DNA of 64,000 nt from Buxus sempervirens (lineage: Eukaryota; Streptophyta; Magnoliopsida; Buxales; Buxaceae), in contig OX387185.1 in assembly GCA_947561395.2 (NCBI GenBank), positions 35,134,213 through 35,198,212 of the forward strand. The letters are read 5' to 3'. The translations under genes were made by a program, and so were the position numbers. A model generated the notes under the pieces. It was not told the origin of the DNA, searched no databases, and worked only from the letters and a program-made list of their open reading frames with translations. Below are positions 3,479 through 63,405 of the stretch, piece by piece (the first letter of the stretch is position 1; each line of letters begins with the position of its first letter).

Positions 3479-4953
3479 GTATCCGACCGGAGTTGTCGGA
3501 TACAAATGATTTGTCCCAAATGGGAAAACCCCGAGAGTTTTCACTTATTTACTTCTATACCTCTATTTGAGAGGTGGGAATTCCCCAAATTAGCCTTCAA
3601 AATTGGCCAAATTCTTCAAATCCATGCCTTAGGTTTGAGTTGGAAGGTTCTAGATACACTTTTGTGTCTACCCCTGGGACTTTATTGCCCTTGCTCTTGC
3701 CTATAAATAAAGGGCCTCTCTTCAAGCAAAGGGCTGGAAATTGAAGCTAGAAGAGCTCTTAGAGAATAAGGGAACCCCTGCCTCTCTACTCTTTCAAGCA
3801 ACCAAGGTAAGTCTCTTCTCTCTTCTTTTCTTCTTTTTAATTTTAGGGTAGTTTCATCTTCTCCCTTTCTGTAGAATAGAAACCTGTGTGTGTTTATAGC
3901 CCCAGATCTATCTCTGAATACCTGAAGCACCCTCTCTAGCTGTAAAACGTGAAGAGAGAGCTAGGGGAAACGAGAACATGAATGGATCCCTACATTAGAA
4001 CCATATCTTGTGATGATCTTTTATATGCCTTTTGATATTCTGGTTGTGAATGTATTTTTTTTATTTTGTTTCAGATCTGGAGGATTCATGTAGATCTATG
4101 CTGTCCATAGCATTAGATCTCCTAGTTCCTCCTAAAAATTTGATTTATCACACAACTACACCCACTTCACTAATCTCTTTCTTTTGGTCATTATAAGCTA
4201 AGATTTTGGATCTACCATCATCAATATGATAGATCTGAAATCAAAAGCCTTAAAATAATCTCTAGGGTTTCATGAAATGATTTCAAAATTGCTTCAAATT
4301 TTGAGAGAGGATCATATGGTCTAAACTCTCCTGTTTTGATGTTTTTTTATCAACATGGGTAGATTTGGCTTCTTTTCCCAATAAATGAGAGATCTAAGCC
4401 AGATCTGTACCCTAAATGGTTTTAAGTTTATTCTTCAATGTATTTTTGAGTGATTTCAACTTATATCATGTGGATTTTCAAGACTTCAATGATTTAACCT
4501 AAGGTTGATTTTTCATGTTTAGCTTTAGGTTTACTTTCTTTGAGTTTATTTTGATTTTTTTATTCAATCATGAAACCCTAGAAAGGTGTATTCATATGGA
4601 GGGTCCAGAATTAATTGGGCCATTCATATGGAAGAACCATACATCTTTTTTGTTCTTTTTTTTATACTTTTGATTAAGTTTTACTTGCAAGCCCTTTTTC
4701 AAGCATGAGCAATACTTGGCAACCACCTTGTGCAGATGAATAGGGGTGCCTAACACCTTCCTCTATTCATAACCTAATCTCCTTACCCATCTCTAGATTT
4801 AACCTTGAAGTAGAGTTACTTTTGACTCTATTTTTACTTTTATGATCATTTTGGTGTCCATTCACACCTAAAACGGAATGGTGGTGACTCATTCTTTTTG
4901 TCAATCTCGTGTGATGATTAGGAAGTAACGTAGGTGATTTTCCATGTCTCACA
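3479..4953 (+). mobile_element. LTR Y-2, 5' incomplete
   Basis: Family Y LTR on the plus strand. It shows, in order, one CCG-N11-CGG palindrome (3479-3503), a TATA box (3701-3709), a leader ending in the splice-donor-like AAG^GTAAGT (cut after 3806), an AT-rich intron-like stretch, GGTGTCCATTCACACC (around 4850), a tRNA-Arg-like complement, and the terminus CATGTCTCACA at 4953. The next bases are CAAAC. The usual TGTAGACACC start is absent, so the left part has been lost or replaced. The 3' half aligns well with Y-1, Y-3 and Y-4. Confidence 0.75.
3701..3709 (+). promoter_or_regulatory. TATA box of LTR Y-2
   Basis: CTATAAATA about 200 bp downstream of the single palindrome. A donor-like AAG^GTAAGT follows about 100 bp later. 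The same TATA-to-donor arrangement is seen in Y-1, Y-3 and Y-4. Confidence 0.65.
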
Positions 4954-5146: not shown

Positions 5147-5392
5147 ATAACCGAAATTAAGTTTCGGTTATACATAAAACATGTATAACCGAAATTTAAT
5201 TTCTGTTCTAAGATAAGATAATGGATTTTTGTGTCAGGTTTTTCTGTGAGAATCCCTGACACAAATCATTGTTGATGAGATGTTATTGTGACCCAAATTT
5301 AATTTCGGTCACAAATAATTTGTGTATAACTGAAATAATATTTCGATCATACACAAATAAATAGCATAACTGAATTGTGTTTTCGGTTATGC
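5147..5392 (+). repeat. Upstream palindrome cassette of X-c (ACCGAAATT type)
   Basis: Five palindromes: 5147-5171, about 5183-5208, 5288-5312, 5323-5355 and 5364-5392. Half-sites are ACCGAAATT and its complement. All keep a 17-bp core of CCG (or CCC/CTG), eleven bases, CGG (or CTG/CGA). A separate inverted repeat with 9-bp arms TGTGTCAGG / CCTGACACA lies at 5230-5263. The cassette ends 10 bp before the TATA box. Confidence 0.9.
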
Positions 5393-5401
5393 TATTTTTG
5401 C

Positions 5402-5410
5402 CTATAAAAG
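5402..5410 (+). promoter_or_regulatory. TATA box of LTR X-c
   Basis: CTATAAAAG immediately after the palindrome cassette. A CT-rich leader and a donor-like GAAG^GTAAGC near 5680 follow. Confidence 0.65.
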
Positions 5411-9350: not shown

Positions 9351-9596
9351 GTATCCGACCATATAGGTCGGATACACTACTTCCTTAGTGTATCCGACCT
9401 ATATGGTCGGCTACACTAAGGGTTACATGTATTCGATATTAAATATCGGATACATAACATAATGATTTCAAATTTTAATGCCGCCGCGAATTTGTCGGGC
9501 AACCGGCGCGAATCTCACTGGTTGATCTCCTTGTATCCGATGAATAGTGTCGGATATACACAAAGGTATGTGTATCCGACATATTTGGTCGGATAC
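9351..9596 (-). repeat. Palindrome cassette of X-b (GTATCCGAC type)
   Basis: Five palindromes: 9351-9375, 9390-9414, 9429-9453, 9533-9559 and 9572-9596. Four are 25 bp; 9533-9559 is 27 bp. Half-sites are GTATCCGAC or GTATTCGAT and their complements around an AT-rich centre. All keep CCG/TCG, eleven bases, CGG. The half-site is nearly that of Y-4 and Y-2, although the surrounding LTRs belong to different families. Confidence 0.92.
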
Positions 9597-10635
9597 AAAT
9601 CAAAAAAATTACGGATTTGCCCCTCGAATTGACTGATTTGACCGATCTGACACTTTTAGATATATGCGGATTGCCCCCTGCGAATTTTGGTTTAGTCCCT
9701 GAGATTTTTAGCAACTTTTTGGATATTTAAAGATTGCCCCCCTGAGATATTTTGTTGCATTTGTAGCCACGTGCGCAGTTTCTGCGCTAGGTGTGCAGTT
9801 TCTGGTTTTTCTGCTCGGAAACTTCGACAGCTCATATCTCCTTCATCCGGACTCCGATTTGAGCAAACTTAGTTGCGTTAGAACCGCATCGGAGCCCTCT
9901 ATCCAATGACATAGGGGTAAGCATCTGGATCGGGGTTTAGCAGAAAGTCAACTTTTGGCTCCCCTTTAAGTTTGACCGGCTGCAGAACCTTCATCCGGAC
10001 TCCGATTCTAGCAAACTCAGTTGCATTGTACTCGTGTCAGGATTTTCTATCCATTGAGATAAATCAAGGGGGCCAATTTTCACTTGATCAAAAAGTCAAT
10101 TTTCGACCCCTCAGGGTTTGACTTTTTAGCTGGGTTTTGCATTTCCGGCTTTTCTGAGAGCGCAAAAATGAGGTGCTTACAAAGAGATCTTGCTAGTATC
10201 ATTTAGTATCATCTAGAGTCTTATTTCAAAGCATCCTATCCTTATGCTTCCTTTTCTTTACTTTGTTTTATTTTAGAAAGGGAAAGAGTGTTCTCCCTAC
10301 GAACTCTCCATGTCCAATGTATCCTTTAAACCCCCCCAAAACCCTTCTATTTACTTACTTTCTTAGGGATTTTTATGCATTATTCTTATCATCCCTTAGC
10401 TTTATGTGAAGTGTTGCATGGACTTGAGATCTTGCATGTACACTAGAAGCCTACCACACACACCAATTCTTCCATTCTCTGTTTTGGTCATTTTTCACAT
10501 GATGTGTGCACAAAGCACCATGCACATGCATGATATACTTAGAATGCATGCTTAGGTTTCTTCCCTTTTATCTTCATTCCATCAACATGTGTACTAAGAT
10601 GAATGGCACACACATTAGCCCACTGATTTACAGCA

Positions 10636-15716: not shown

Positions 15717-15866
15717 GTCTGCATTTGAAATGCGGACAAGGCACGACCACACTTCAAATGTGGTTCTAAGCTTCTAGAAGATCGCCACGGGTCGCCAACG
15801 GCGAGAGCTGGCAGATTCGTGCGGATTTTGGCACATGGGCAATTCGTCCGCATTTAAAATGCGGAC
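15717..15866 (+). repeat. Upstream palindrome cassette of X-e (GTCCGCATTT type)
   Basis: Palindromes at 15717-15737, 15747-15763 and 15846-15866. The last is perfect: arms GTCCGCATTT and AAATGCGGAC around one A. All keep CCG (or CTG/CCA), eleven bases, CGG (or TGG). The cassette ends 14 bp before the TATA box. Confidence 0.9.
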
Positions 15867-15880
15867 ACGGAAAAAATGTC

Positions 15881-15889
15881 TATAAAAGG
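15881..15889 (+). promoter_or_regulatory. TATA box of LTR X-e
   Basis: TATAAAAGG, 14 bp downstream of the last palindrome. Confidence 0.65.
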
Positions 15890-29114: not shown

Positions 29115-29353
29115 AATGCCGCCGCTCGCCGGACGTAAAAATCTTTAAAATTAAGATTTAGTCCCTGACAATTTTTGGTAAAATCCGATATTCTTGGATT
29201 TTTACAGATTTAGTCCCTGGGATATTTCGAATGTTCGGATATTTACGGATTTGACCCCCGAGATATTTTCCTGCGCAACTCGCCACGTGTGCAGCTTTTT
29301 GCCACGTGCGCAGATTGCCGGTTTTGCTGCCCGGGAATTTCGTCAGCTCATAT

Positions 29354-30165
29354 TTCCTTCATCCGGACTCCGATCTGGGCAAACTTAGTTTCATTAGAAT
29401 CGTATCGGAGCCCTCCATTCCATGACCTAGGGGTAGGACTCCGGATCGGATTTTGGCAGAAAGTCAACTTTTGGCTCTGCTCAAGTTTGACCGCCCGCAG
29501 AACCTTCATCCGGACCCCGATTCCTGCAAACTCAGTTGCGTTGGAACCGTGTCGAGATTCTCTATCCAATGACCTAGGGGTAGGCCTCTGGATCGGATTT
29601 TAGCAGAAAGTCAACTTTTGGCTCTGCTCAAGTTTGACCGCCCGCAGAACCTTCATCCGGACCCCGATTCCTGCAAACTCAGTTGCGTTGGAATCGTGTC
29701 GAGATTCTCTATCCAATGACCTAGGGGTAGGCCTCTGGATCGGATTTTAGCAGAAAGTCAACTTTTGGCTCTGCTCAAGTTTGACCGCCCGCAGAACCTT
29801 CATCCGGACCCCGATTCCTGCAAACTCAGTTGCGTTGGAACCGTGTCGAGATTCTCTATCCAATGACCTAGGGGTAGGCCTCTGGATCGGATTTTAGCAG
29901 AAAGTCAACTTTTGGCTCTGCTCAAGTTTGACCGCCCGCAGAACCTTCATCCGGACCCCGATTCCTGCAAACTCAGTTGCGTTGGAATCGTGTCGAGATT
30001 CTCTATCCATTGATATAAAGCAAGGTACTTGGCACGGAATTCGAGGAAAAGTCAACTCTTTGGCTTTTCCTTAATTTTGTCCGCCCGCAGATCCTTCATC
30101 CGGACCCCGATTCCTGCAAACCCAGTTGCGTTGGAATCGTGTCAAGATTCTCTATCCAATGGCAT
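29354..30165 (-). repeat. Tandem array of a 147-bp unit in X-d
   Basis: The word AACCTTCATCCGGACCCC begins at 29501, 29648, 29795 and 29942, giving a period of exactly 147 bp. The three units between these points look almost identical. A diverged unit flanks them on each side (29354 and 30091). Other X LTRs (X-a, X-b, X-e) carry only two diverged copies, so the array expanded in this copy or its recent ancestor. Both units contain AAAGTCAACTTTTGGCTC and CAGTTGCGTTGGAA. Confidence 0.93.
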
Positions 30166-31906
30166 AAAGCGAGGTGGCCAAATTTCACTTGATCAAAAAG
30201 TCAACTTTTCACCCCTTAGGGTTTGACTTTCTGTCCAGGGTTTGCATTTTTGGTTTTTCGGGGAGCGCAAAAATGAGGTGCTTACAGTCACCTCTAGGAT
30301 TTCATGATCAAGTAAAAATTAAAGTAAAACTTGAAGAAAAATAAACTAAAACAAATCTGGAAAAATCAACTCAAGATTAAGCCGTTTGAACTTGGAAAAC
30401 TCAATCAATCATACGTCATTCAATTCAAACTCAAATTAAGTGAAACCAAAGCCATTTGAAAGCTTACATGAAGTAGAAGATTTAGTGAAAATTTCAATTA
30501 AATCCAATTGAAATCAAGGACAATACACTTGTTCAAAATTGCTGTTGTAAAACAGTAAAAGCAGCGAGTAGTCAACTTTGAAAGCCTATTAGTAGAGATT
30601 GGCTCCATATAAATCCTTGAAAATTGGTATGAATGAAGTATGAGGTGCCATATTTTGAATGAAATAGGCCTCACTCATAACTTTATCCATTTGTAGCTTG
30701 TGTGTTCTCTCAAACATGCTTAGAGGATCACAGATTGACTTTGTAATCTGCTACTGAGCAGTACATGGTCAATCAAGCACACAGAACTCAAATTAAAGTG
30801 AAAACTCTTGAAACTAATTGGATTTGAAGTTAGACTCATAAAGAAGACTCAAAAAGTGAAATCACTCAAATCGGAGTTAAAATGAGCCTTTGGTGCTCAA
30901 TCAAAGTGACAAGTTCAGCAATTTGATCTGATTTGACTTATCAATTTTAATCAAATGGTTTGAAAAATCGGCTTCATATAAATTGTTAAAATTTTACAGG
31001 AATAAACTAGACTTCTTCACCTTTCACATGTCTCTAGGATCATTCAAAAATTCATCAATATGACGAAGCTATGAATGATCCAAGACATGGTACAGGTTCT
31101 ATCTAGATCTGTAAACTTTAAGTAATACCAAACCAAAACAGTGTGTGTGTGTGTTTGATCCACATGATCTGATTTGAAATCCCTTGAAATGAGTGGAAGA
31201 TCACTCAAAAATATTTATGGCATGGATTTAACTCAAATCTCTCATTATTTGGAGAGGAAAAGCCGAATCCGCCCAAATTGGTGCAAATTTGCTCAAATCA
31301 AAGAGATTAGACCAAGAAGTCTTATCTAGAAGATAGAAATCAATTAAAATCAACTCAAAAGTCCTAGGAATTTATTCTAAGGCCTCTGATCTCAGATCTA
31401 CTATATTGAGCATAGTAGATCTAAGATCTATACTTATTTTGACAAAAATCAAGTGATGTGTGCATGGAATTGTGTAGGAAATCAGATTTGAAAGAGAGAA
31501 TTAAGATCTAATGCTATAGAGAGCATGATCTATGTAATTCCTCCAGATTTGAAGACAAAACAAACACAAATAGCAATCACACATGAATTTAAACAAATCA
31601 TGCAAGTGTTTCATGAGAAATGGTTCTAAGCCTAAGGATCCATTCCAACACTTGTTTCCCCTAGCTCTCTCTTCACGTTTTACGACTAGAGAGGGTGCTT
31701 GAGGTACTTTAAGCATGGTTTGGGGTTTCAAACACATACAAGGCCTTATTTACAGAAAGGTAGAAGAAGAGAGAGTTCTTGAATTGAAATAAAATGAAGA
31801 GAGAAAGCTTAGAAGCTTACCTTGGTTGCTTGAGTGTAGAATTGAGCAAATGTTCCATGCTTCTTCAAACTTCAAAATTCCAGCCCTTTGCTAGAGGAGA
31901 GGCCCT

Positions 31907-31916
31907 CTATTTATAG
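31907..31916 (-). promoter_or_regulatory. TATA box of LTR Y-1
   Basis: CTATAAATAG on the minus strand. About 90 bp downstream comes the donor-like CAACCAAG^GTAAGC, the same sequence as in Y-2. Confidence 0.65.
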
Positions 31917-32102: not shown

Positions 32103-32250
32103 TGTATTTGACAACTCAGGTAGGATACAAATAAATTCTTTATAGTCAAAATATAATTTCCACCACAAAGAATATACCTATATCCGAAATAAAATTTCGG
32201 TTACACATAAAATTGAGTTTGACCAAACTAAGTTTTCGGTTCAAGGCAAA
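32103..32250 (-). repeat. Palindrome cassette of Y-1
   Basis: Three diverged palindromes: about 32103-32127 (a decayed GTATCCGAC type), about 32180-32206 (CCG AAATAAAATTT CGG, the ACCGAAATT type of X-c) and about 32216-32248. All keep the eleven-base gap. They lie upstream of the Y-1 TATA box in LTR orientation. Confidence 0.8.
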
Positions 32251-42500: not shown

Positions 42501-43031
42501 ACTTGTAGGTTATCTGTTCTGAATTTGAGAACTTGAATTAATTGAGATGTATTAAAGTTAATTGGGGATGAACCATATGATTCCAGTTCAGTTTAAATGT
42601 TAAAATTTTGCATAAATAGAAATGTGCACTCTGTCAGGTTATAGATGTATGATTATCCAGCGATCATAAATTGATTAACGATCCTTGCCTAACCTCCGTG
42701 AGACGTGTTATATCTTTAATGAACAACACGGATCCGGGGCGTTACAATTGGTCACATTGATATTTCTTCATGACCAATATTAAATATCGGTCACATTGAT
42801 AATTCTTCATGACTGATTTGAGTTGTCGGGTATTCTCATAAAAGCTCAACTTGAAAATTCCCGCGAGCTTTCCTATATTTACATTGAAACCTCTTTCTAG
42901 AAGGCTTAAATGGCCTAAATTAGCTTCAGAAATTTGCTCAATTCCCTCCAATGCAAGCCATGGTCTTCAATTGAAAGGATTTAGACACACTTTTGTGTCT
43001 ACCCTTGGAACTCTTTTACCCTCAATTGTGC

Positions 43032-43040
43032 CTATAAATA
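43032..43040 (+). promoter_or_regulatory. TATA box of LTR Y-3
   Basis: CTATAAATA about 235 bp after the palindromes. The words CACTTTTGTGTCTACCC upstream and TCTCTCCTCA downstream align with Y-2. Confidence 0.65.
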
Positions 43041-45671: not shown

Positions 45672-46778
45672 TGTAACGCCCTGGATCCGAGTTACGCAGA
45701 AAAACCATAACTCATCTCTGGAGGTTAATATATAACACAGGATCGTAATATCAGAGTGAAGGAAAAACATGAATACAACAAAACTATATAATCAGAGTGC
45801 GCTACAATACCAAACTAAAATAATAAATACAGAATACAACTCTAAACTCACATAATCGAGCAACTACCCGCAGGTATCGTCCTCTCCAAGAGCAGCTGAA
45901 AACAAAACAAAACAATACGGAATGAGATACGAATATCCCAGTAAGCAGCATATGCATGCACAAATACATTTTTTATAGTTATAAAACATGGATCGAATAA
46001 TACACAAGTATCGATAATGATAACACGATTAATCCGACTAATCCCACAATAATATAACAGATAAAGATGATATAGCTAGTGAAATTCAACATGTAAGTCA
46101 AGATATTAACGTCAGTATCAAATCACAATTATAACCTTAAAATTACTTATAACCTGATAACAATACTTCGTTGAAATCATAATCTACGGAAAGATGAGTG
46201 TTTATCATTGTAGACACCCCAAAATTGCACGATTCTTGATAAATCTTGAAAGAGAGAAATATTTTATTGGAATTTTCAATTCTTTGCATTGGGTTTGAGA
46301 TCCTTAACCCATTTGAATCCAAAACCGTAAGGGAAAAGGCCCGAATTCAATCTTTTGTGCAAAGTCAAACTTTTTCCGGTTGAATTTTGTTGACTTTTGA
46401 CCCCAGAAAATGAAATATTTTTTAAAGCCAGATTTCAAGATAATTTTTCCCGGTAATTAGGTTTTTAGCCATGTTATTGCATAAAAGAATTTTTTGAGAT
46501 TTTAAATCTTGACGAATACCTTGGTTTAACATGTTGAATCTTTTTACCGGACCTGAAAAATTGGAATTTTGTCTAGAACTGGAAAGTTGACTTTTTATTC
46601 ACTTGGAATTTGGGTCTAGAACTATTTTTAATGGATTCAAATTGGGGGGTGTTTGTTTATTTACATGTAATATCTTAAGTAAATGGAGATTAAAAAATAC
46701 GAGGACATTTACTTAAACAATATTACATGTAAATAAGTATTGCCTGTGTTAAAATTCGGATAAAAGCTTCTTTTTTTT

Positions 46779-46920
46779 GTATCCGACAGATAATGTCGGA
46801 TACAAAACATCTTTATTGTATCCGATAGATAATGTCGGATACAAAGGATCTTTATTGTATCCGACAGATAATGTCGGATACAAAGAGAATTGCTTGTATC
46901 CGACCTGACATGTCGGATAC
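46779..46920 (+). repeat. Palindrome cassette of Y-4 (GTATCCGACA type)
   Basis: Four 25-bp palindromes at 46779-46803, 46818-46842, 46857-46881 and 46896-46920, with a strict 39-bp period. Arms are GTATCCGAC and GTCGGATAC. All keep CCG, eleven bases, CGG. Three of the four also contain outward-facing TGTCGG words, the core of the auxin-response-factor site. Confidence 0.95.
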
Positions 46921-47087
46921 AAGCTTTTTGCTCAAAATTAGGGTTTTCCGAGAGTTTTCACTTTTTACCATCATATCCTTCATTAAAGGAGTGGAAATCT
47001 CAGAAATAGCCTTAGGGTTAAGGTTGGTGGACTCTAGACATCATTTTGTGTCTACCATCATGCAAACCCTAACCCTAGCCTTTGCCT

Positions 47088-47098
47088 ATAAATAGGAG
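47088..47098 (+). promoter_or_regulatory. TATA box of LTR Y-4
   Basis: CTATAAATAGG, 168 bp after the last palindrome. A donor-like CAG^GTAAGC follows 118 bp later. Confidence 0.7.
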
Positions 47099-47869
47099 GC
47101 TCCTCCTCAAGCAAATGGCCATTAACTCTTGCCAATAACTTTTGCCAAGAAGTTGGAGATCAAAGAGCTCCGAGTGAAGAGGGGAACCGCTGCAGTCTTG
47201 CTTCCAGAAGCCCAGGTAAGCCTCAAACCTCTTTTTATTTTTACATTCTAGATCTAGATCTCTTCTTCTACCTTTCTCTAGAATAAGGCCTCTTCTATGT
47301 GTATGAAAACCCTTTCCCTACTCAAAGTACCTCGAGACTCCCCTTAGCCGTAAAACGTGAAGGCGGGATCTAGGGGAAACGAGACTGGGGATTGATCCTA
47401 GTGTTAGAACCTTATTGCAATAAGCCTTTCGATTCTATGAAAACCGTTTCATATTCAAAGTACCCCAACATTATCTTGAAGAACCTAACGGGGAGAGAGA
47501 ACTGTAACGCCCCGAACCCGGGTCAGTGCAAACCAGCACCCGACCCGAACCCGGATCGCTACTGTAACAACCCCAATTTAGTTCAACAACCAAATCCGAG
47601 GTGTTACTGGCCCATATCATATACAACATCAAAACATACCAGACCAAAGAATTCAAAATCCATTATCTTATTATACTATCAGAGTTGCGGAAACAAGTAT
47701 GTGCGGAAGTGTAGTTCAAAATCCTCAACTGAACATAAAGTTTGACCATCAATTAGTAATATCAAAGTCTGGTAAAATAACTGGGTACTATCTCTCTCAT
47801 CTCTCAATACATCAACCCAAAATAATAATAATCCAATCAAATGTCCTAAGTCTATAGCAACAATCCACC

Positions 47870-61954: not shown

Positions 61955-63139
61955 TTATCCACTTCGAGCTGGCTTTATCCTGTTGTTATCCCTTTGATTT
62001 GCATCAACTTCCTCTCCCCTAGAAGAACTTGACTCCGGCAAGTTGCGGTGAATGTATTCACGAAATGTTTCGGGACTTAACCTGTTGATTTCAGCAGCTT
62101 GCAACCATATGGCATCAGAAGGAGGACGATTTTTCCAACTTACTAAATACTTGTAGTATCCTCCCCGTCGTGTGGTAACAAACTGATGGTCAATAATAGA
62201 GTCAATAACGTCACGAGGATGTACAACATTGGGTACACGGATTGGGGTCTCACAAATTGGAGCTGTATTCTCCTCCTCACCTTTGTAGTCAATCAAATCC
62301 TCCACATTAAAAATGGGACTAATATTATAATCAGAAGGGAGTTCAACAACATACGCATTGGGGCCAAGTCTTTTCTGAATCTTGAACGGTCCAGCCTTCC
62401 TAGCATGCAATTTATGAAAACTCCCCGGTGGAAAACGTTCAGGCTTTAAGCGTATAAATACAACATCCCCAACTTCAAAAATTTTTTCTCTTCTTGATTG
62501 GTTAACATGTCGAGCATAATCTGCAGAATTAACAGCAATTCTTCGACAAACCTCTTCATGCATTTGAGTCATGTACTGAGAAAAATCAATAGCTGCTTCA
62601 CTAACACGTGTTGGAGTTGGCAAAGAGTTCAGATCAAGGTGAGTCCGAGGTTGGTATCCATAGACAACATCGAATGGAGCAAACCCAGTGGTCCTGTTGA
62701 CAGAATTATTGAAAGCAAATTCTGCTTGGGGCACCACCAAATCCCAACTAGCAGTGTGATCATGAATTAGACATCTCAAGAGATTGCCTAAACTCCGATT
62801 AGTCACCTCTGTCTGTCCGTCAGTTTGTGGGTGAAAAGCACTTGAAAATAACAGTTTAGTCCCCATTTTTGCCCACAAAGTCTTCCAGAAATAGCTCATA
62901 AACTTCACATCGCGATCAGATACAATAGAAGTCGGTAGATCGTGAAGGCGAACTACCTCTGTCATGAACAAAACAGCCACACGAGAAGCATCAAATTTCT
63001 TACGACATGGAAGAAAATGAGCCATTTTCGAAAATCTATCGACAACCACCATAACAGAATCGTTTCCTCTAAGGGTCTTTGGCAATCCAAGGATAAAATC
63101 AATACTTATATCCTTCCATGGGCGATCAGGAATCGGCAA
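61955..63139 (-). CDS. Chromovirus integrase with C-terminal chromodomain (retroelement-derived)
   Basis: An open frame of 394 codons. In the living family this protein inserts element cDNA into the host genome, and the chromodomain steers it to certain chromatin. Visible: catalytic core with D34 (VVVDRF), D75 (VSDRD) and E111 (QTEVTN), giving the D,35,E spacing; the HPQTDGQTE block; a GPY/F-type module (RKAGPFKIQKRL..NAYVVELP, about 247-268); FNVEDLIDYKG; and a chromodomain at about 310-365 with YYKYLVSW and AIWLQAAEI. The ATG is simply the first in this frame; the family's protein continues upstream as part of Pol, so this is not an independent gene. It is the best-preserved coding sequence in the window. 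Confidence 0.85.
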   Translation of the reverse strand: MPIPDRPWKDISIDFILGLPKTLRGNDSVMVVVDRFSKMAHFLPCRKKFDASRVAVLFMTEVVRLHDLPTSIVSDRDVKFMSYFWKTLWAKMGTKLLFSSAFHPQTDGQTEVTNRSLGNLLRCLIHDHTASWDLVVPQAEFAFNNSVNRTTGFAPFDVVYGYQPRTHLDLNSLPTPTRVSEAAIDFSQYMTQMHEEVCRRIAVNSADYARHVNQSRREKIFEVGDVVFIRLKPERFPPGSFHKLHARKAGPFKIQKRLGPNAYVVELPSDYNISPIFNVEDLIDYKGEEENTAPICETPIRVPNVVHPRDVIDSIIDHQFVTTRRGGYYKYLVSWKNRPPSDAIWLQAAEINRLSPETFREYIHRNLPESSSSRGEEVDANQRDNNRIKPARSG

Positions 63140-63405
63140 TGGTGTATAAAGCCCTGTATTTTGCTTACACCCTTGTTAACTTGACAAACTCTGCATCGTT
63201 CTACTAACGTATGCACGTCCCTTCTTAACCTAGGCCAGTAGAAGCGGTCTTTTACCAAAGCCGTGGTTTTATCAAACCCAAAGTGACCAGCTAACCCACC
63301 ACCATGCAGTTCCGCAATTATGAGTTCACGAAGAGATCCAATTGGAACACAAAGGTGATTATGCTCAGCTTAGTTCTTGCTTATAAAACTGCCTCACCTA
63401 CTTGG

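Follow-up and report, generated by a model that had tools for sequence, protein, structure and literature searches.

LTR elements of Buxus sempervirens carry arrays of a 17-bp palindromic site, CCG-N11-CGG, upstream of their TATA boxes and in a second cassette. The geometry of the site, the spacing of sites within arrays, the homogeneity of most arrays, the switching of the letter beside the triplet and the agreement between the two cassettes of one element can all be read directly from the DNA. We consider it probable that the arrays are operators for a putative family of homodimeric DNA-binding proteins, whose specificity would lie at positions -1, +4 and +5 of the half-site, +4 being the base after CCG.

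Geometry and placement of the sites

Between positions 46779 and 46920 of the window (the whole 64-kb stretch of DNA that was analysed), four 17-bp CCG-N11-CGG sites start at 46783, 46822, 46861 and 46900, a spacing of exactly 39 bp, and each is embedded in TATCCGA...TCGGATA. This array (46783–46916; given without strand, as are the arrays and sites below) lies in the 5′ part of a Y-type LTR on the plus strand (46209–47502), which begins at 46209 with TGTAGACACCCC and whose TATA box is located at 47086. The site starts are found 303 to 186 bp upstream of this TATA box, and the array ends 170 bp upstream of it. From ~47503 the LTR is interrupted by later insertions; its 3′ part picks up at ~49844 and ends at ~51519. 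In copy L016 the Y-type LTR has a length of ~2.9 kb.

Two main classes of arrays can be told apart by their dyad spacing, P28 (28 bp) and P39 (39 bp), the array described above belonging to the latter. An X-type element on the minus strand with its TATA box at 1402 carries the P28 array X-a (1418–1627), with T at +4 in 10/10 half-sites, and the second cassette of an X-type element, also P28, is seen at 501–573 with mostly T at +4 (T5 G1). A P39 array with A at +4 lies in an X-type LTR on the minus strand (9355–9592), its closest site being 14 bp from the TATA box. Another X-type LTR has a partly degenerate P28 array of the C type (CCGCA) at 15719–15864, upstream of the TATA box at 15881. Four sites with the half-site ATAACCGAAATT, some of them degenerate, form a 38-bp array (5151–5346) upstream of the TATA box at 5403. 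Single sites were detected at 3483–3499 (TATCCGA type, in a Y-type LTR, upstream of the TATA box at 3701), at 32184–32200 (ACCGAAAT type, upstream of the TATA box at 31916 on the minus strand) and at 42774–42790 (the one-base variant CCAATATTAAATATCGG, upstream of the TATA box at 43032). A relaxed scan of the window yielded 27 outward sites, including one at 29318 outside any array, with the variant at 42774 additional; this is close to the "about thirty" palindromes counted in the sequence-only reading that preceded our analysis. One X-type U3 also contains tandem 147-bp repeats (29315–30214), of which single copies are seen at 1807–2117 and 9799–9961.

That reading had assigned one CCG-N11-CGG geometry to the palindromes near LTR TATA boxes, and the counts bear this out. 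The window contains 20 exact matches, compared with 1.90 ± 1.34 expected from 100 shuffles. Genome-wide (676.5 Mb), where counting of CCG-N(k)-CGG covered k = 10, 11 and 12, we found 43,280, 163,369 and 40,613 matches, respectively, which is the excess at k = 11 that had been predicted. In a 204-kb sample composed of the window and 14 random 10-kb stretches, all from contigs C1, C3 and C4, k = 11 gave 40 matches against 7.6 ± 2.7 in local dinucleotide shuffles (z 11.9). The expectation that k = 11 alone would be raised held only in part: the excess is sharpest at this spacing, but in the same sample k = 13 is likewise raised (26 matches, z 8.5, only 1/26 symmetric; set aside), as are k = 33 (z 5.7) and k = 39 (z 7.8), the latter being a spacing that the 28-bp lattice would produce (14+28 bp). 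When the targeted stretch L023 was added (214 kb), both next inner pairs were complementary in 22/43 of the k = 11 matches, as against 0 to 4 for the other values of k from 4 to 30.

Distances between neighbouring sites up to 130 bp apart (n = 105, from loci that were partly targeted, many stretches having been selected because they contained a k = 11 or lattice match) are 28 bp in 46/105 cases, 27 bp in 5 and 39 bp in 29/105. Within P28 arrays the triplets follow one another at 14-bp steps, CCG and CGG in turn. On the plus strand of the whole genome the lattice CCG-N11-CGG-N11-CCG is present 28,546 times and the reversed pattern 2,450 times. The sequence CGGATA-N16-TATCCG has 26,061 matches genome-wide, compared with 495 for N15, these being the two spacings counted. 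The linkers of P39 arrays are dissimilar, with an identity of 0.37 over 12 central bases (21 linkers). In the stretch C1:3379000–3462300 (G000), P39 and P28 arrays are packed every few kilobases and form a cluster of such elements.

That the arrays lie upstream of the TATA box was established for L014, L024 and the LTRs of the window. X-type arrays end 14–16 bp from the TATA box in 4/4 LTRs measured (L014, 9.3k, 15.8k and X-a). The second cassette lies ~0.8–1.6 kb downstream of the TATA box in X elements and 1.2–2.0 kb past the LTR end in the Y elements L025 and L023. Both array classes occur with the X backbone (P28 in 1.4k; P39 in 9.3k, L014 and L048) and with the Y backbone (P28 in L024; P39 in 46.7k, the first array described above). 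In L037, a P28 T-type array (86–185) stands beside a P39 G-type array (343–476) in the same LTR, possibly as an intermediate between the classes. Some X-type LTRs, L046 and L047, have no arrays. Another palindromic unit, GGCATGCATGG-N7-CCATGCATGCC, is seen in the X-type LTR of L046 in two copies ~113 bp apart (4227–4400), and perhaps represents a further operator class.

The base after CCG and its switching

The putative specificity classes are TATCCGA, TATCCGG, CCGTA, CCGCA and ATAACCGAAATT, and in most arrays the +4 letter is uniform or nearly so. Among P39 arrays it is A in 9.3k (10/10 half-sites) and 46.7k (8/8), and G in L014 (14/14), L028 (8/8) and L037 (8/8). In P28 arrays it is mostly T, with C in L042 (8/8) and L038 (4/4). 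Mixed arrays were also detected, namely L031, L035, L036, the second cassette of L032 and partly L043. Genome-wide, TATCCGR-N9-YCGGATA has 41,238 sites, of which 2,184 + 2,203 = 4,387 (10.6%) have mixed halves. Independence of the two halves would give ~49%, a figure estimated from a partly targeted sample of 76 half-sites (43 A, 32 G, 1 C), and the comparison carries no probability because the copies are related.

Five pairs of aligned relatives, selected for differing +4 letters, were compared at each half-site. Between 46.7k and L028, +4 changes from A to G in 8/8 half-sites, positions -4 to +3 are the same, and the background of A to G changes is 24/236. The same change is seen in 10/10 half-sites between 9.3k and L014 (background 46/406), and the A/G switch is common to X and Y backbones. 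A change from T to C was found in 7/8 aligned half-sites between X-a and 15.8k, where two further half-sites lie in gaps, in 7/8 between L027 and L042, and in 6/8 between L024 and L043, with one change in the opposite direction. Better retention of the triplet CpGs than of other CpGs was not significant across the five pairs (32/40 vs. 44/69, Fisher P 0.087), and in the 1.4k/15.8k pair only 3/8 triplet CpGs were kept.

We also compared 84 unselected array pairs, which were drawn from 32 arrays in five backbone groups and are not independent, as pairs share arrays and copies are related; here the over-dispersion relative to the binomial was 3.64-fold at +4, 2.23-fold at -1 and 2.20-fold at +5, and positions -2, +6, +7 and +8 were near binomial (~1.2–1.3). 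In 32/84 pairs an intermediate share of half-sites differed at +4. The letter that differs coherently between families is +4, and less so -1 and +5. The earlier suggestion of a two-fold site with fixed triplets and changeable inner half-sites thus survives in modified form: the triplets are fixed and their neighbours change coherently, but specificity would reside at +4 and partly at -1 and +5, not in the deep inner bases.

The linkers between sites differ in how they accompany a switch. In the 46.7k/L028 pair they (0.42) are more diverged than the flanks (0.86), which makes cassette exchange the likely source of the difference. Upstream of its cassette, the LTR of L015 has a Y backbone that shares ~89–90% identity with L028 and L030, yet the cassette itself is P28 of the C type, which shows that cassettes are exchanged. 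In the 9.3k/L014 and L024/L043 pairs, linker conservation is about equal to that of the flanks, indicating that the letter was changed in place. Descent of all sites from one ancestral sequence with neutral decay, which had been named as one observation that would count against the proposal, is rejected because it does not predict a concerted +4 change with the spacing kept and the linkers scrambled.

The majority +4 letter is the same in both cassettes in 10/10 elements with both readable, the pairing of two cassettes into one element being inferred from distance and order. The common letter is T in the window element X-a, L024+L025, L026, L027, L032 (second cassette T4 C2) and L039, G in L014 and L048, A in L023+L050 (second cassette A4 G2) and C in L042+L051. 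For L042/L051 the agreement was predicted first; a C-type LTR cassette was sought at the computed place and found there. L028 stands outside these ten, its second cassette being absent at the one place searched (L052), which was predicted from L023.

Coding content and related systems

A gag domain (PF03732) was found in L023 and L014, to which the gag of L020, of the Ty3 type, is related, and a frame of L025 is 76% identical to the gag frame of L023. There were no copia domains in the frames scanned. In L024/L025 the only frame of at least 150 aa is gag-like, as read from the PBS-like site to within ~0.6 kb of the next LTR, other copies having been read partly. In TR-GAG elements the LTRs enclose a gag frame and pol is absent, and L024/L025 is a candidate for this type. 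A separate Ty3 element in the window contains an integrase/chromodomain frame (61958–63175, minus strand).

The X elements have another, conserved frame, ORF2 (L014 7540–8337, minus strand), with a coiled-coil-looking N-terminus followed by a copy of the C-terminal C-H-H-C (zinc-like) region of gag; across 101 residues it shares 50% identity with the gag end. This frame is widespread, with 144 scored matches of 75–100% identity, many of them open (of 8,359 first-look candidates). ORF2 was considered as the site binder. Three further carriers were read far enough into the LTR, a fourth (L049) ending short of the array region and being left out of the comparison. L048 has arrays, all CCGG, and the other two, L046 and L047, are without CCG arrays. 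ORF2 therefore does not track the sites and was rejected as their binder. PF04195, the TRP28 domain of Retand elements, gave 0 matches in this genome, with control genomes equally silent, and the literature searched held nothing usable on LBD-type host sites.

No description of CCG-N11-CGG arrays was found in the literature searched. To call the system undescribed, as the sequence-only reading did, is nevertheless too strong, as palindromic repeats built on a CGG-CCG core precede the TATA box in the LTRs of Sireviruses (Ty1/copia; Bousios et al., 2010; PMC2829016), though these elements belong to a different superfamily and their repeats face inward and vary in spacing. These motifs are the nearest to the arrays in layout. 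They share with them the many copies per element, the dyad symmetry and the clustering in the LTR upstream of the TATA box; the CGG/CCG triplets are kept and the remaining sequence differs between elements, and the extra motif copies that env-bearing elements are reported to carry in a further region can be likened to the second cassette (PMC2829016). The arrays are not Sirevirus motifs because orientation, spacing and element type differ: the Sirevirus motifs are inward CGG-N-CCG with varied spacing in Ty1/copia elements (PMC2829016), whereas the dyads found here are everted (CCG-N11-CGG), keep one spacing and a 28/39-bp phase, occur in elements whose gag is of the Ty3 type (PF03732) and show concerted switching of the neighbouring base. 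Inward CGG-N11-CCG is present here only between P28 dyads.

In behaviour the arrays come nearest to the motifs of VANDAL transposons, which are bound by the element-encoded VANC anti-silencing proteins (PMC5735166). Short repeated noncoding motifs with single-letter differences between related families (C-type, T-type) are common to both. The motif letters of VANDALs change together with a changing protein; here letters switch together between families. VANDALs are DNA transposons with motifs in one orientation and a protein shown to bind them, and a VANC-like system would entail loss of DNA methylation on binding; the arrays are everted pairs at fixed spacing in LTR elements with a putative binder, and we do not count them as a VANDAL/VANC system. 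Retand elements resemble the present ones as plant Ty3 elements that have internal tandem repeats and an accessory protein suspected of binding DNA; they have an antisense TRP28 (PF04195) frame ahead of the 3′ LTR, and the parts of the source seen do not report palindromic arrays (PMC11963269).

The combination of a fixed site geometry with concerted letter switching did not turn up in the literature searched. The Gal4-type zinc-cluster sites of fungi, CGG-N11-CCG, also have fixed triplets at a fixed spacing and are read by homodimers, and their inward arrangement recurs between the dyads of the 28-bp lattice. In those sites spacing is a main source of specificity, whereas here the spacing is constant and the neighbouring bases change.

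Proposed explanation and alternatives

Symmetry was assessed in 70 P28 and 37 P39 sites selected by geometry alone. In neither class is the complementarity of +6, +7 and +8 above the composition expectation; the site is therefore one half-site used twice, and the dyad symmetry is mainly of this kind. The bases +6 to +8 vary inside one array. The strongest half-site bases, among sites picked partly by pairing, are ~-5 to +5 in P39 and -2 to +5 in P28. Part of the P39 symmetry extends past the half-site, the outer pairs -4 to -7 being complementary above composition (e.g., 20/37 at -7, expected 0.31). In P28, no variable position exceeds composition-expected pairing by much.

We propose that each dyad would represent two everted copies of one half-site, with 17 bp between the outer ends of the CCG triplets. 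A homodimer would contact CCG, and the flanking +4, -1 and +5 would tell element classes apart. Dimers would be placed at a fixed DNA phase, with a repeat of 28 bp (triplets alternating at 14-bp steps) or of 38–39 bp, which is about one helical turn more, and would bind beside the LTR promoter and at the second cassette. Such binding would most likely activate LTR transcription or prevent its silencing. Lineages may change class either by exchange of a whole cassette or by in-place alteration of +4 at most or all of its sites. Pol-dependent elements would gain from co-expression with a partner, which would explain both cassette exchange and code switching. The binder could come from a host paralogue family or be a protein of autonomous partner elements. 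We infer the protein dimer, its variants and its effect on transcription from the patterns described above.

A more specific version, which we regard as unlikely, is a VANC-like LTR system: an element-encoded family of homodimers would act on its own promoters through a phased lattice with a CCG frame and changeable letters (-1, +4, +5), and gag-only elements would switch their code so as to keep up with the autonomous partner providing pol, either through cassette exchange or through in-place change at most or all of their sites.

It seems very unlikely that selection acts instead on RNA or cruciform hairpins, so that the palindromes themselves matter. The RNA of 46770–46930 does have a folding energy of -84.2 kcal/mol (z -14.1), the outer pairs of P39 are in excess as noted above, and there is a precedent in maize Sirevirus LTRs, whose palindromes are small-RNA hotspots (PMC5311732). 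However, pairing at +6 to +8 equals composition in both classes, the variable positions of P28 are little above it, and hairpins predict neither a letter shared across an array nor the exact 28/39-bp phase and N11.

About as improbable is that the classes reflect the separate recruitment of ordinary host factors unrelated to one another, e.g., with DREB-, ARF- or SBP-like cores. The resemblance of CCGAC, TGTCGG and CCGTAC to the DREB core, the ARF site and an SBP core, respectively, speaks for it, but one common 17-bp geometry is not expected from unrelated factors, and members of one class differ at bases required by such cores (e.g., +6). It is highly improbable that the sites are alike through tandem homogenisation or common descent, without any binding specificity: the arrays are repeats with common half-sites, and the diverged linkers of 46.7k/L028 fit wholesale cassette replacement, but within an array homogenisation is seen at +4 and not in the linkers or inner bases, the linkers of 9.3k/L014 and L024/L043 point to a letter changed in place, and X and Y backbones show the same A/G switch.

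Read as operator arrays for a family of homodimers, these sites would provide an unusually clean readout of regulator-specificity change in transposon families, with a single frame common to tens of thousands of sites and aligned relatives in which one base is exchanged in most or all sites. They make testable the idea that retrotransposons use diversifying operator codes to evade or recruit their host, and the cassettes could serve directly as baits for finding the protein.
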